In this document: one piece after another, positions 1 through 43,163 of the stretch
How positions within the stretch are numbered: the first letter of the stretch is position 1
Layout: every line of letters begins with the position of its first letter
Origin: Prototheca cutis
Taxonomy: Eukaryota; Chlorophyta; Trebouxiophyceae; Chlorellales; Chlorellaceae
Assembly (NCBI GenBank): GCA_002897115.2
Contig: BCIH01000002.1
Location: 1,300,083-1,362,332, forward strand
Reading direction: 5' to 3'
Length of the DNA: 62,250 nucleotides
Notes under the pieces: model-generated
Databases searched by the model: none
What the model saw: only the letters and a program-made list of their open reading frames with translations
Told to the model about the DNA's origin: nothing
Made by a program: the position numbers and the translations under genes

Positions 1-1
1 G

Positions 2-448
2 GCCTACGCGGCGGTCATCGCGCGCCTGCGCAAGTTCGCGAACGGCGCGACGCTGGTCGTCGGCGACTGCTCGCCGGGCCCGGCACGCTACCACGAGCCG
101 ATGCCACACGTGGGGCTACTGCGGGCGCTGGTCAAGGCGGGGTTCAGCGTCGTGCTCATCGACGAGTTCCGCACCTCCAAGCGCTGCCCGGCCTGCGAAC
201 ACGAGGACTGCACGGTGGAGACGTTCCTCCGCGTGCCCAACCCATGCCTGCACTGCAGGGAGCAGACGCCCGAGGTGGTGTGCCACGGGCTGCTGCGCTG
301 CACCAACGAGAAGTGCCGCCCCCCCAACGGCGAGCATCGTCTCTGGAACAGAGACTTGATGGCGTGTCTGAACATGAGGCACATCGTGGAGCACCTGCGG
401 AAGACTGGCGAGCGGCCGGACCGCTTCCAGCGCCCAGCGCCGCGGTAA
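2..448 (+). CDS. Fanzor (eukaryotic TnpB-like RNA-guided nuclease), C-terminal part, 5' truncated by window
   Basis: The frame is open from base 2 to the TAA at 446-448, giving 148 residues without an intron; the N-terminal part lies outside the window. The order of motifs is that of the RuvC/zinc-finger end of TnpB and Fanzor proteins. A strand with VVGDCS (residues 19-24) is followed by IDEFRTSKRCPAC (residues 53-65), whose Glu-55 fits the alternative catalytic glutamate described for Fanzors. Cysteine pairs follow at 62/65, 82/85 and 100/105 (zinc finger), then LWNRDLMACLNM, whose Asp-118 fits the last RuvC aspartate. All these residues are present, so this end is not visibly decayed. In this family the protein is guided by an RNA encoded at its 3' end. 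The terminal repeat at 615-763 supports a transposon context. A classical TnpB transposase name is the main alternative. Confidence 0.82.
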   Translation, partial: AYAAVIARLRKFANGATLVVGDCSPGPARYHEPMPHVGLLRALVKAGFSVVLIDEFRTSKRCPACEHEDCTVETFLRVPNPCLHCREQTPEVVCHGLLRCTNEKCRPPNGEHRLWNRDLMACLNMRHIVEHLRKTGERPDRFQRPAPR

Positions 449-614
449 AATCCATCCTGGGGGTTTATAGCCTTCCCAACTGGGGTGGGAACTCCTGGGG
501 CTCCTTCCCTTCCCCGGCAAGGGAAAGCAGCCCCGGGGGTCGAAACCCTGGGGGCTCCCTTCCCGGGCCAAGGAGCCCAGAGCTCGTTGCCCCGGGAAGG
601 GAACACAGTCCCGG
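449..614 (+). other. GC-rich structured stretch between Fanzor stop and terminal repeat; candidate guide-RNA region
   Basis: This segment has no convincing ORF but several hairpins. TTCCCTT at 505-511 pairs with AAGGGAA at 519-525. CCCTTCCCGGG at 557-567 is a perfect 11-bp inverted repeat with 591-601. A weaker stem lies between them, around 527-556. In Fanzor and TnpB loci the guide RNA scaffold is typically encoded at the 3' end of the ORF and the element's right end, so a structured non-coding stretch here fits that position. The RNA assignment is inference. Confidence 0.4.
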
Positions 615-763
615 AGGTGGTCCATCATGGGGATGGTCCACCTTCCTATTGCCATGCAAAGAGTGTGGAAATTTTCGGGCCATCCGTGATGCCCAGCAAC
701 CCCCGGGGTGATGTGACGCTGTTGCTGGCTGAGCTGGTTGCATTATTTNTGCCCTGCATGGTA
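615..763 (+). repeat. Right-end terminal repeat of Fanzor element (copy A)
   Basis: About 149 bp that recur as the reverse complement at 42553-42700 with roughly 85% identity by eye. Both copies begin with GGTGGTYCATCAT, share the block around GATGCCCAG...CCCCGGGGTGATGTG, and end in GCATTATTT...TGC..TGCATGGTA. The first 27 bases form an imperfect hairpin (GGTGGTCCATC against GATGGTCCACC). The outer 20 bases match the terminal inverted repeats of the 42551-42913 element, so 763 is probably the transposon boundary. Confidence 0.75.
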
Positions 764-1099
764 TTTTTGCCGAAACGGGGCGATGTCACCATAACAAAAC
801 AAAACTCAGCATGCGGCCCATGCCATGTACGGCATTGATAGCAGGCAGCTTCACTCTATAATACTGCGCATGTTCAGCATATGACAGCATCAGTATGCTG
901 CAAGGGCTCAGGATGCTCGCATGGCCGCCCAGCAAGGAGCTTTGCTGGTATAAGGGGTGCTGACTGGACACTTGCGTTGCTCCGGACGGTCGAGGGCCCC
1001 AGGCACTGCTACAGTCATCGACATAAAAGGGTTTGGACCCTCAGTACTTGCGTCACGTGTTGCAAGTCATCGAACGGGAGGGCGCCTGGTGTCACAGAA
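764..1099. other. Intergenic, element flank and upstream region of PPAT gene
   Basis: Less GC-rich than the neighbouring exons. I see no supported gene. It should contain the promoter and 5' leader of the downstream gene and the unresolved target-site flank of the Fanzor element. Confidence 0.4.
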
Positions 1100-2206: not shown

Positions 2207-2757
2207 TGGGGGGGCCCTGAGGAAAGTTCACTGCATGCAGGGGATGAAAGACCTTTGACGTGATGACGGGGATGCTGGGTATGGGCCCTGGAATGCTACA
2301 AAGGCACAGGCCGTCCTTTCCACCTACTATTCCCATGAAACACAACCTATGCTGCACACCCAAAAGAGGAATTCAGCCAACTGAACAAGCAAGCTCTTCA
2401 ACTCCCTCCGAGGCTGCAGCGGACAAGTTGCTGCAGAACAAGGCGAGGAAGGAGTTGCTGCAGCCGTACGAGGCGCGGGCCGCGGCGGCGGTGGGCTACA
2501 TGCGCTCGGTCAACCCGGGGGCCTCGGTGACCGCCGGCGCGCTGCGTGATCCGGCCGAACCACCGGCGGCCACGACAGACCCCGGGTACGATGCCATCGT
2601 GGTCTCTGAAGAAACCGTGCCTGGCGCACTCAAGATCAATGCGGACCGCGCGGCCCTGGGGTTCAAGCCTCTGACTGTCGTGGTTATTGGCATCGTTCAC
2701 ACGGCGGGGTCATCGGCGGGGAAGCTCAGTTCCACCGACCTCCGCATGAGCGAGTGA
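1100..2757 (+). CDS. Phosphopantetheine adenylyltransferase (PPAT), multi-exon, long N-terminal extension
   Basis: PPAT transfers AMP from ATP to 4'-phosphopantetheine, the penultimate step of coenzyme A synthesis. The diagnostic stretch is in the exon ending at 2127: FNKVAVGGTFDRLHAGH, the nucleotidyltransferase HxGH-type motif, followed by EIYVGVT. The intron 2128-2419 splits a Ser codon, so the protein continues GVTSDKLLQNK, as in eukaryotic PPATs. The last exon, 2420-2757, carries the end of the domain and stops; there is no dephospho-CoA kinase domain as in animal CoA synthase. At least three upstream exons (about 1100-1211, an exon ending at 1517, and one from 1587) encode an extension I do not recognise. 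Its start and phases are uncertain. Introns hold a 49-C run and a (GT)n run. Confidence 0.82.
1658..1706 (+). repeat. Poly-C tract (49 C) in PPAT intron
   Basis: An uninterrupted C run upstream of the probable acceptor ATGCATGCAG ending at 1740, so it acts as an extreme polypyrimidine tract on the sense strand. Confidence 0.9.
2141..2205 (+). repeat. (GT)n microsatellite just inside PPAT intron donor
   Basis: About 32 GT units, starting 13 bases after the splice donor at 2128. Confidence 0.95.
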
Positions 2758-3409
2758 AGCTATTGTTTTGGGTGCATCGGGACGCGTTTGCGCCTGGATA
2801 ATACGCTGGACAGGGGCCTGCCCATGTGGTTTGCTGTGCTGGAACATGACCTGTCGCTACACATTTCTCTGTGCTATTTTATCTGCACATTTTGCCCCAC
2901 GGTATTTCCCCAGCACGCCTGTCTGGCATGCAGTCTGGCACACAGGGATGTTGTTGAGGGCAGTTGGATGCCAACGTTTTGGAAGTACAGACGAGGATCA
3001 TGAGGGTGTGGGGTGCAGGTCGTGCGAGCTGGAATATGCCACAAGATGGTGCAACAAACCGAACCATCCATCCGGTGTTGATGAAAGGAGGCCGGGTTGT
3101 GCGCTACCGGGCCCCCGGAATCGGGGAAAAGGACAGTCCACGGGCAATGAAAGTGCATTGCGCACGGTACAAATCTTTTTCATGCTGTGTTCTCTCGATG
3201 CACTGCATTGTTGGCGCGGATCCTTCCGTCCGTCAGCGCAGGGTGTTGATGCGGGCAGGCGGGGGGTTCGGATCGTTCCGAAATGACGTGATGCCTCGTC
3301 AAATCTGCACGCAGAGCCTTGCAGGGACAGAATAGTCGCGCAAACCGATCCAATCCTGCCAGTTTCCATTTACATTATTGTTTAATAGGGTTCATAGCAA
3401 CCATCCACC
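2758..3409. other. Intergenic region, no gene seen
   Basis: Between two same-strand genes. Several ORFs of 60-170 codons overlap each other on both strands without recognisable motifs. I treat this as the PPAT 3' region plus the promoter of the next gene. Confidence 0.45.
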
Positions 3410-4626
3410 ATGGCGCTCAGGGTTGGTATTCTGGGTGGGGCGAACATTGCCAAGAAAGTTAGCCGGGGCATCAACACCATCCCTGACAAGGTCCAAGGTG
3501 AGCCGGGTTGGGCGGAGATGGTCGTGGGAGGAACACCATGAATGGTGATCGGCCTGTGTTTAGGACGATCAATGCACTGGAATAATCGGGAGATCGATGA
3601 GGCCTCGAGCGCCCGACTACCGGCCCATGACCCTCAGTGATCGCCGTGGGGAGCCGGAGCGTGGACAAGGCCAAGGCCTTCATCGAGGCTACCAAGTTGA
3701 AGCATGCCCAGCCCGTGGAGGGCTACGACGCGGTGCTGGAGTACCCCGGCCTGCAGGCCGTGTACATCCCCCTGCCCACGCGACTGCACGTGGAGTGGGT
3801 GCGCAAGGCCGCTGCAAAGGGCCTGCACATCGTCCTTGAAAAGCCCATTGCCCTGGACGACGCCGACACCACAGCCATTGTGGAGGCCGTTGCCGCGGCG
3901 GGCGTGGTGCTCTTTGACGGGACCATGTGGATGCACCACCCGCGCACGGCGCTGATGCGCGCGGCGCTGACCGAGGTCGGCGGCGCCACCGACGTCTCGT
4001 CGCTGCTGACCTTCAAGGGCAGCGAGGATTTCTTCAAGAATGACGTGCGCGTCAGGGCCGAGGCCGATGCGCTGGGGTGCCTGGGCGACCTGGGGTGGTA
4101 CTGCACGCGCGCCATCCTGTGGGCCTTTGACTATGCGCCGCCGACGACCGTGGCCGCCAACCCCGGCACCGTGTTTAATGACGAGGGCGTGCCCATCCAC
4201 TTGGGTGCCACGCTGCTCTACGCCGACGGCCGCCGCGGACGTTTTGACACTGGATTCGACACGGTCTTCACAAACACGTTGCAAATCGCCTGCGCCAACG
4301 GGTCGGTCTACCTCCGGGACCTTGTCATCCCCAACCGCGAGACCGAGGCGAGCTTTGTCGTGACGACGAACAACGGCCTCGTCGAGCAGGACACGCGTGT
4401 CAGCACGGTCGAGGAAACACGGACGGTCGTCAACGACATCACCCAGGAGGCGGCGCTGTGGGTGCGGTTTGCCGAGGAAGTTGAGAAGAAGGCAAAGGAC
4501 GGCAGCGTCGACCGCCACTGGCTGCGTCTCGCGGCGCTGACGCAGCGCGTGCTCAATGCCATCCTGAAATCTGCCCAGAACAATGGCGCGCCCGTGGACC
4601 TCGAGTGGAACGAGGAGACGTACTGA
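3410..4626 (+). CDS. Gfo/Idh/MocA family NAD(P)-dependent oxidoreductase
   Basis: Two exons, 3410-3497 and 3638-4626, give 358 residues. The short first exon encodes the start of the Rossmann fold (RVGILGGANIAKK, a GxGxxA-like dinucleotide loop). The intron splits a Val codon, giving VQVIAVGSRSVDKA. The second exon has the family signature LHIVLEKPIALD (EKP motif with the catalytic-region lysine) and the C-terminal alpha/beta domain with GDLGWYCTRAILWAF. Length and layout match plant and algal cytosolic members such as the Arabidopsis At4g09670 type, whose substrate is unknown. I cannot infer the substrate from sequence. The ATG at 3410 lies in a CCACC-ATGG context, which supports the start. 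Confidence 0.9.
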
Positions 4627-42426: not shown

Positions 42427-42550
42427 ACTGATGGACTATTCTTGGGTACATGGTTTGTTGGGATGGACAATGTGGATGTGTGACTTCTCCTCTGGTCCGA
42501 ACTACAAGGGCTCAAATGCAGCGCTATGGACATCTAGAATTGGACACGAT

Positions 42551-42913
42551 TGTACCATGCAAGGCAAAAATAATGCAACCAGCTCAGCCNGCAACAGCGN
42601 CACATCACCCCGGGGNTTNCTGGGCATCNCTGATGGCTGTGAATTGTCACCCCCCACAGGGCAAGAGGAAGGTGGACCACCTCGATGATGAACCACCGAG
42701 TTGCAACAAGTGTCGTGCCAGGCTCAATGTCCAGGACTTTCTAAAGCCTCCTTGCACGACCTGCCCTGCAATCAGAAGGAACCCAACCAATTCTCTGAGC
42801 CATGTGGCAAGGGAATGCGGTCCAACAGGCATTTTGTTTGGGAGACATGCCCTTGCTGTGCAGGTGGGAGTCGACGAATCTCGAGAAGATTTCATCATTT
42901 TGCCCTGCACGGT
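42551..42913 (-). mobile_element. Small TIR element (MITE-like), related to the Fanzor element right end
   Basis: 363 bp bounded by imperfect inverted repeats: left TACCATGCAAGGCAAAAATA (42553 onward) and right ATCATTTTGCCCTGCACGG (42894 onward). They match at about 18 of 22 positions. A 7-bp direct repeat ACACGAT flanks it at 42544-42550 and 42914-42920, as expected of target-site duplication. The first 148 bp (42553-42700) are the inverted copy of 615-763, the end of the Fanzor element. The remaining ~210 bp carry no transposase or Fanzor motif, so it is non-autonomous. Six of the ambiguous N bases in the window fall inside it. Inserted between POLL and GINS4. Confidence 0.75.
42553..42700 (-). 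repeat. Terminal repeat copy B (inverted relative to 615-763)
   Basis: Read on the minus strand it starts GGTGGTTCATCATCGAGG and ends TTGCCTTGCATGGTA, aligned along its length with copy A, including the hairpin near its inner edge. Confidence 0.78.
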
Positions 42914-43163
42914 ACACGATGATGTGGTGCAGAGAAATTGTGAAAGCTAAAGGGCGTCAGCATTTCGTTCCTTTGATGGCGATCCTGTTTGAATTTCGAA
43001 ATCACGGCTGCAACCTTTCACTTTCGACGGGAGCATGGCAACTGCCTTCCAATCTTCCCGGCGATCCAGGACGTGGTGCTGAACAGTGTTGACACGGCAG
43101 TACACATTCAAGCAGAGCAGGAGACATCTGTAGGCGTTGCCTGTGCATTCGACAGGCCAGGCC
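42914..43163. other. Intergenic, upstream of GINS4
   Basis: About 250 bp between the TIR element and the GINS4 start; the element therefore lies within the likely promoter-proximal region. Confidence 0.4.

Follow-up and report, generated by a model that had tools for sequence, protein, structure and literature searches.

The window, by which we mean the whole stretch of 62,250 nucleotides of Prototheca cutis DNA analysed here (G000:C2:1300083-1362332; GC content 59.6%, from a genome assembly of 19.9 Mb), opens inside a coding sequence which a sequence-only reading had taken for the catalytic end of a Fanzor RNA-guided nuclease. Sequence comparison bears this out and narrows the assignment to Fanzor1. 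The frame runs without a stop over 148 codons and contains both of the catalytic motifs that had been claimed for it, IDEFRTS with its Glu and LWNRDLMACLNM with its Asp. Its features are as follows.

2..448, + strand: Fanzor1 C-terminal 148 codons and stop, with RuvC-II, zinc ribbon and RuvC-III (ORF reading, phmmer)
164..166, + strand: RuvC-II catalytic Glu codon (LIDEFRTS), aligned to the Glu of DEFRTS / DEYKTS in the PpFz1 and SpuFz1 chains
185..196, + strand: zinc ribbon, conserved Cys pair 1 (CPAC; alignment)
245..256, + strand: extra Cys pair CLHC replacing RPYR, in this copy alone (comparison of copies)
299..316, + strand: zinc ribbon, conserved Cys pair 2 (CTNEKC; alignment)
353..355, + strand: RuvC-III catalytic Asp codon (LWNRD; motif LWNRDLMACLNM), aligned to Fanzor1 chains

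A phmmer search of PDB chains matched the window piece to Fanzor1 of Parasitella parasitica (PpFz1) with E = 1e-31 over residues 10-145 and to that of Spizellomyces punctatus (SpuFz1) with E = 2.5e-12. A weak match to GtFz1 (E = 0.38) was also seen, and the remaining PDB matches listed, at E ≥ 0.17, are unrelated proteins. Profile searches of Pfam, PHROGs and NCBIfam returned solely TnpB/Cas12f/transposase models, weak or below cut-off, and thus families of the TnpB/Fanzor type, as had been anticipated, rather than an unrelated zinc-finger family. Three cysteine pairs had been described. Two of them, CPAC and CTNEKC, are indeed conserved, aligning with SpuFz1 and PpFz1 as a four-cysteine ribbon between RuvC-II and RuvC-III, but the middle one, PCLHC, is private to the window copy: RPYR or a close variant occupies its position in each of the 17 other long copies compared (L002-L018, some letters being N). 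Part of the altered tract recurs in one of the deleted copies described below (L046), so that a gene-conversion patch is possible. For SpuFz1 the active-site residues are given as D383, N385, E541 and D606 in the excerpted text of PMC10432273.

An assembly gap of 8472 N lies directly upstream of the window, and the 5' two thirds of the window copy fall inside it. The claimed lack of stops and frameshifts holds across the visible 148 codons, but nothing is readable beyond them. An open frame of 2987 aa at this copy is an artefact, because it runs through the gap, and giant open frames of up to 4907 aa were likewise rejected as fusion proteins, since they run through N in the copies read. Extension towards the 5' end, which had been suggested as a check, therefore meets only N in the window copy but succeeds in its siblings. 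The RuvC-I motif FIDPGRGDLMY is readable in seven of the eight lineage-A copies that reach that far, the Asp codon of the eighth being N; the order RuvC-I Asp, RuvC-II Glu, RuvC-III Asp is complete in siblings, while the window copy shows the Glu and the RuvC-III Asp. Sibling frames are of about 700 codons. That on contig C7, a 701-codon ORF from an ATG, gives E = 1.4e-56 with PpFz1 and E = 1.3e-29 with SpuFz1 in the PDB, with no Fanzor2 or TnpB chain among the matches listed at E up to 1. Placement with Fanzor1 rather than with Fanzor2 or TnpB is thus indicated by the PDB chain matches listed. Several copies have an upstream frame, suggestive of 5' exons with splicing predicted from sequence; an upstream piece of 102 codons matched nothing in the PDB at E up to 10, and a 241-codon upstream frame matched no Pfam family.

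The window piece has at least 151 matches in its own genome (150 of 303 candidates were scored) and, among the matches listed, more than 100 begin past residue 60 and are C-terminal pieces. Many long copies adjoin runs of N or contain scattered single N, so assembly collapse of near-identical copies is likely and copy numbers are to be read as lower bounds. A domesticated single gene is rejected for the window family, whose copies are dispersed, and is entertained for the second lineage alone (lineage B, below). Protein database searches gave one match for the window piece (16 candidates) and, with 8000 candidates scored, two for the sibling ORF, numbers too small for a tree. A viral or phage home found no support: viral contigs yielded no confirmed relatives and phage records none. 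The sole database match of the window piece, P0002 (145 aa; ENA, 715-nt contig), has N-terminal Fanzor residues fused straight to C-terminal ones; it is a copy with an internal deletion that has been annotated as if it were a protein. P0003 (647 aa; ENA, 3017-nt contig) is 75% identical to the sibling ORF and, reading WGRN and not WNRD at RuvC-III, may have lost the catalytic Asp position.

Downstream of the stop codon the window copy continues into the end of a transposon.

449..763, + strand: transposon 3' untranslated end (copy similarity stops at 763)
616..763, + strand: right-end block, predicted scaffold with 5' hairpin and stem (kept by 28 ghosts of three deletion classes)
751..763, + strand: right terminal repeat GCCCTGCATGGTA, its last two bases a probable TA target duplication (alignment of ends)
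764..779, + strand: predicted guide, the first ~16 bases of host flank past the TA (by analogy with SpuFz1)

The transposon end proposed from the sequence alone is confirmed by aligned 3' flanks of 19 right-end sequences from 18 loci, whose similarity is lost abruptly after GCCCTGCAYGGTA, at window position 763. The terminal inverted repeat (TIR) reads CCRTGCAGGGC. A right-end pattern with up to three mismatches occurs at 284 places genome-wide and its reversed control at none, a count in which fold-backs (see below) enter twice and some variant left ends are possibly included, typical left ends differing by 4. The usual left end, type I, bears the inverted repeat TACCRTGCAGGGCAAAAATGATG; its pattern is found at 311 places genome-wide, right ends matching it too. 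A second left type, type II (TACAGTRACGGCAGAAAATGATGAAACC), gives 99 matches with up to three mismatches and none in the control. The inner part is common to both types. The first ~14 bases of type II are not inverted copies of the right end, so that the two ends of an element match as inverted repeats for type I and fail to do so for the 99 type-II matches. Type-II left ends lie on four ghosts of which both ends were read (L043, L053, L055 and L072), all with standard right ends, and also near Fanzor copies L011, L026, L030 and L032. Such pairing with standard right ends indicates that the left terminus has been exchanged and the right kept. Loci L118-L137 are also among the 99 places of the type-II terminus (TACAGTRACGGCAG...).

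TA is found mostly at both ends, with no longer duplication visible by eye beside paired ends, and a TA target-site duplication is probable. The element on C7 measures 3431 bp and has a degenerate left terminus; window positions 1-761 correspond to its positions 2670-3429 with 95.0% identity. No transposase ORF was recognised in it by eye. In weak searches that ignored introns, PF13358 (DDE_3) had no matches in the genome, with three of 14 control genomes positive, and PF01359 (Transposase_1) had none either, its controls being equally empty. The 5' region of the C7 element also carries a diverged internal duplication (~316-430 and 596-704, about 73-77% identical).

Most right ends that we classified belong to deleted elements. 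Forty-one loci were assigned, 40 fetched and one in the window, and 32 of them are ghosts or fold-backs, a proportion that overstates the ghost share because the sample consists mainly of exact right ends on contigs C1-C5, minus the long copies already in hand. The first ghost class (12/41 loci) joins ~205 bp of left end to 146 bp of right end; the second (13/41) joins ~170 bp of left end to 3' Fanzor codons and the right end; a third shared deletion accounts for three loci and fold-backs with two right ends for four, the other nine being incomplete, truncated at the limits of the stretch fetched, or of other kinds. Deletion junctions are common to ghosts, which implies amplification of a few founders. 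The fold-backs (L050, L069, L058 and L041) are mini-elements of 106-249 bp that lack a left end and carry a right-type end on either side, and in three of the four one flank reads CA, equivalent to TG before TA on that side. The ghost in the window has the following parts.

42553..42914, - strand: MITE-like ghost of 362 bp, left ~205 bp and right ~146 bp, without Fanzor codons (comparison with the family)
42553..42697, - strand: its right-end block, the predicted scaffold (alignment)
42537..42552, - strand: its predicted guide in the host flank (by analogy with SpuFz1 guide RNAs)
42913..42916, - strand: TG and TA at its left end, fitting the predicted target-adjacent motif (TAM) T(G/C)TA (flank reading)

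The right-end block (window 616-763) is conserved, with a mean column identity of 90% across 51 aligned copies. Run on 52 copies, RNAalifold predicts a 5' hairpin followed by a long stem, one strand of which is the TIR with its TA and the other an internal TIR-like repeat. In this consensus fold 96.3% of cells pair, against 32-59% in slid versions, but no pairs are changed on both sides and a shuffled control pairs equally well. Single folds of six right ends were mixed (z = -1.87, -4.38, -3.87, +0.24, -1.01 and -1.42), and in window 300-1000 no known RNA family scored as high as its gathering threshold, the best E being 0.027. RNA structure in the block is plausible from these sequences; the internal TIR-like repeat could equally be a transposase site. 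The excerpted accounts of Fanzor1 guide RNAs place the TIR and target-site duplication within the scaffold (Yoon et al., PMC10711439) and have the guide RNAs of SpuFz1 extending 14-15 nt into the flank (PMC10432273).

Host flanks were compared at 91 left ends and at 56 true right ends, the latter mostly exact-match, with the eight ends of the four fold-back loci set apart. The 56 right flanks give 56 distinct 16-base predicted guides. TG precedes TA at 39/62 type-I left ends and at 9/29 of type II (p = 0.007), where TC does so in a further 10/29. Taking TG and TC together, a post hoc grouping picked once the data had been seen, the two types agree (43/62 and 19/29, p = 0.81; 62/91 in all), the background in the window being 178 of 1082 TA sites. 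On the other side the mirror motif, with CA or GA following the element, is present at only 18/56, and the difference from the 62/91 on the left is significant (Fisher p = 3.5e-5). With TG alone the comparison is 48/91 against 14/56 for CA (p = 0.001). A count with the types mixed had given 40/65 against 14/56 (p = 6e-5); recounting by left-end type made the case for TG alone weaker and prompted the T(G/C)TA grouping. By analogy with the SpuFz1 elements, our analysis predicts the TAM as T(G/C)TA. CA after the right end (14/56) is itself above background (p = 0.002), and the share of TG differs with left-end type, so that the flank preference is partly dependent on the left end, which would not be expected from a TAM alone and speaks for some transposase influence.

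The terminal bases of the element are also asymmetric. Since the right flanks come mostly from exact-match right ends, fixity was judged from genome-wide exact counts: the right terminus reads GGTA in 85 of 87 cases, HGTA in two (one C, one A) and TGTA in none, whereas the type-I left terminus reads TACC 23 times and TACD 16 times (Fisher p = 5e-8). Subfamily inheritance could inflate this asymmetry, for the left-end variants may be inherited subfamily states and the copies therefore non-independent. A right-end G retained through scaffold pairing, or because it keeps the occupied site from reading TGTA, would give such an asymmetry.

The homing model known from work on bacterial TnpB offers a framework for these observations and, to our knowledge, the role of Fanzor proteins for their transposons is still open. 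We consider it probable that the window opens with the right end of a DNA transposon of ~3.4 kb with a Fanzor1 gene and no recognised transposase, with a predicted right-end guide RNA and homing. The last ~146 bp, TIR and TA included, would be transcribed as a guide-RNA scaffold, and the next ~15 bases of host flank would serve as guide. The nuclease with this right-end RNA would then recognise T(G/C)TA followed by that flank, which is the insertion site in its empty state, and cut it once the element had been excised or where it was absent from the homologue, after which repair would copy the element back from the homologue. The occupied site would stay uncut because the right end reads GGTA. 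Full and ghost copies alike would be moved in trans by a putative TA-choosing transposase.

The strongest competitor, which we hold to be a substantial though lesser possibility, accepts the Fanzor1 transposon but dispenses with guide RNA: the right end and left-flank motif would reflect transposase binding and target choice, and the ghosts would be ordinary MITEs. Both ends are kept in the first and second ghost classes (25 ghosts), base-pair covariation is absent, the TG share varies by left-end type (p = 0.007) and CA is somewhat enriched on the right (14/56, p = 0.002), all of which sit comfortably with such an account. It fits poorly, however, with a flank motif that is one-sided (p = 3.5e-5) and with a terminal base that is near-fixed on the right and variable on the left (p = 5e-8). 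The equivalent region in Spizellomyces, moreover, is a sequenced guide RNA according to the excerpted text of PMC10432273.

It is also conceivable, but unlikely, that the family is a relic whose Fanzor copies are inactive, the window copy being a decaying end. The window copy is altered at an Arg-Pro which, displaced here by PCLHC, is present in the solved PpFz1 and SpuFz1 chains; copy L018 is frameshifted near its 3' end, many copies have internal deletions and much sequence lies inside assembly gaps. Against decay, 13 among the matches listed, the window piece included, show 89-100% identity across 146 or more of the 148 residues, and siblings have open frames with RuvC I-III. The pooled dN/dS of 14 ORF pieces is a moderate 0.48 (91 pairs: median 0.51, range 0.09-1.85), and the Fanzor fragments of ghosts give 0.68 (18 pieces, 153 pairs). 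That the fragment encodes an unrelated zinc-finger or other protein, as might be argued from a match to the Pfam Cas12f1/TnpB zinc domain of 21.8 bits, short of the curated cut-off of 26.3 as it also is in three longer relatives including the sibling ORF, is refuted by the strong Fanzor1 matches across almost the whole piece and can be dismissed.

Within the homing interpretation a more speculative extension may be entertained, namely that the ghosts form a genome-wide reservoir of trans-acting guides. It is a tentative idea, which we would not ourselves expect to hold, that a few Fanzor1 genes serve up to ~280 right ends and that homing maintains the family, its deletion derivatives and both left-end types. 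Equally doubtful for now is the corollary that each right end names the empty version of one insertion site, and we offer with the same reserve the suggestion that a single base separates self from non-self, T(G/C)TA being cut and GGTA spared. A guide reservoir would explain why the right terminus is fixed while the left termini, of two unrelated types, have drifted.

Ghosts of Fanzor elements have been published before, in S. punctatus, and the window family adds a further member. In the excerpted text of PMC10432273, 134 ORF-less 'ghost Spu-1' elements with guide-RNA regions are described beside 42 Fz loci. As far as that excerpt goes, the SpuFz1 elements resemble the window family in being single-ORF Fanzor1 elements with inverted repeats and ORF-less ghosts. 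In both, the dinucleotide left of the left repeat is conserved, CA in SpuFz1, whose TAM is CATA, and mostly TG here; the SpuFz1 guide RNA comprises the right-end block and 14-15 nt of flank, and the like is predicted for the window family (PMC10432273). The window family differs, on the same partial description, in its repeats, its predicted TAM and its two left-end types, and its ghosts derive from at least three deletions, some retaining 3' Fanzor codons. By sequence the closest solved structure is P. parasitica Fanzor1 (PDB 9cf0), with the same catalytic motifs and zinc ribbon. It differs from the sibling ORF, in which a long Gly/Arg-rich insert precedes RuvC-I and no match to the opening part of the fungal protein was detected.

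A literature search for Prototheca and Fanzor produced nothing beyond a preprint on Auxenochlorella UTEX 250 (PMC12633428), according to the excerpted text of which a Fanzor is encoded by the most abundant repeat, an element described as uncharacterized and there given no ends, ghosts, TAM or guide. From that description it is likened to the window family as a high-copy Fanzor in a small green-algal genome, and the two are possibly the same or sister families. The portion of PMC3627910 consulted reports Fanzor1 in mariner-type elements that bear TA duplications, of which some encode Fanzor alone. It also reports Fanzor families of high copy number, in Chlamydomonas and in the red alga Cyanidioschyzon. 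The window family shares with the mariner-type elements the Fanzor1 gene and, probably, the TA duplications; unlike them it has no mariner-type transposase that our weak searches could find, and its second left-end type forms no inverted repeat of the right end.

The family provides many copies on which homing can be tested: the target motif is one-sided, and of the two termini solely the one on the predicted guide-RNA side is constrained. If the interpretation is true, many of the insertions in a eukaryotic genome have been shaped by RNA-guided homing, and a nuclease whose predicted target motif is four bases long is in hand; if homing fails, what is left is an ordinary high-copy Fanzor1 family.

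A second Fanzor1 lineage, lineage B, is present at G000:C4:1442731-1454400 (L019, L034, L020 and L035), with 69-70% identity to the window piece. The locus has three copies, of which two have frames open for 680 and 698 codons, and includes an inverted duplication 99.7% identical over 1107 bp. The type-I repeat of the window family was not found at C4:1442731-1454400 and, to judge from sequence, this could be a resident, non-mobile Fanzor cluster. Back in the window, interrupted frames (NKVAVGGTFDRLHAGH) occupy positions 1081-2760, starting ~300 bp downstream of the transposon end, and resemble what we take to be phosphopantetheine adenylyltransferase; the sequence between them includes poly-C at ~1660-1706 and a GT run at ~2141-2204.
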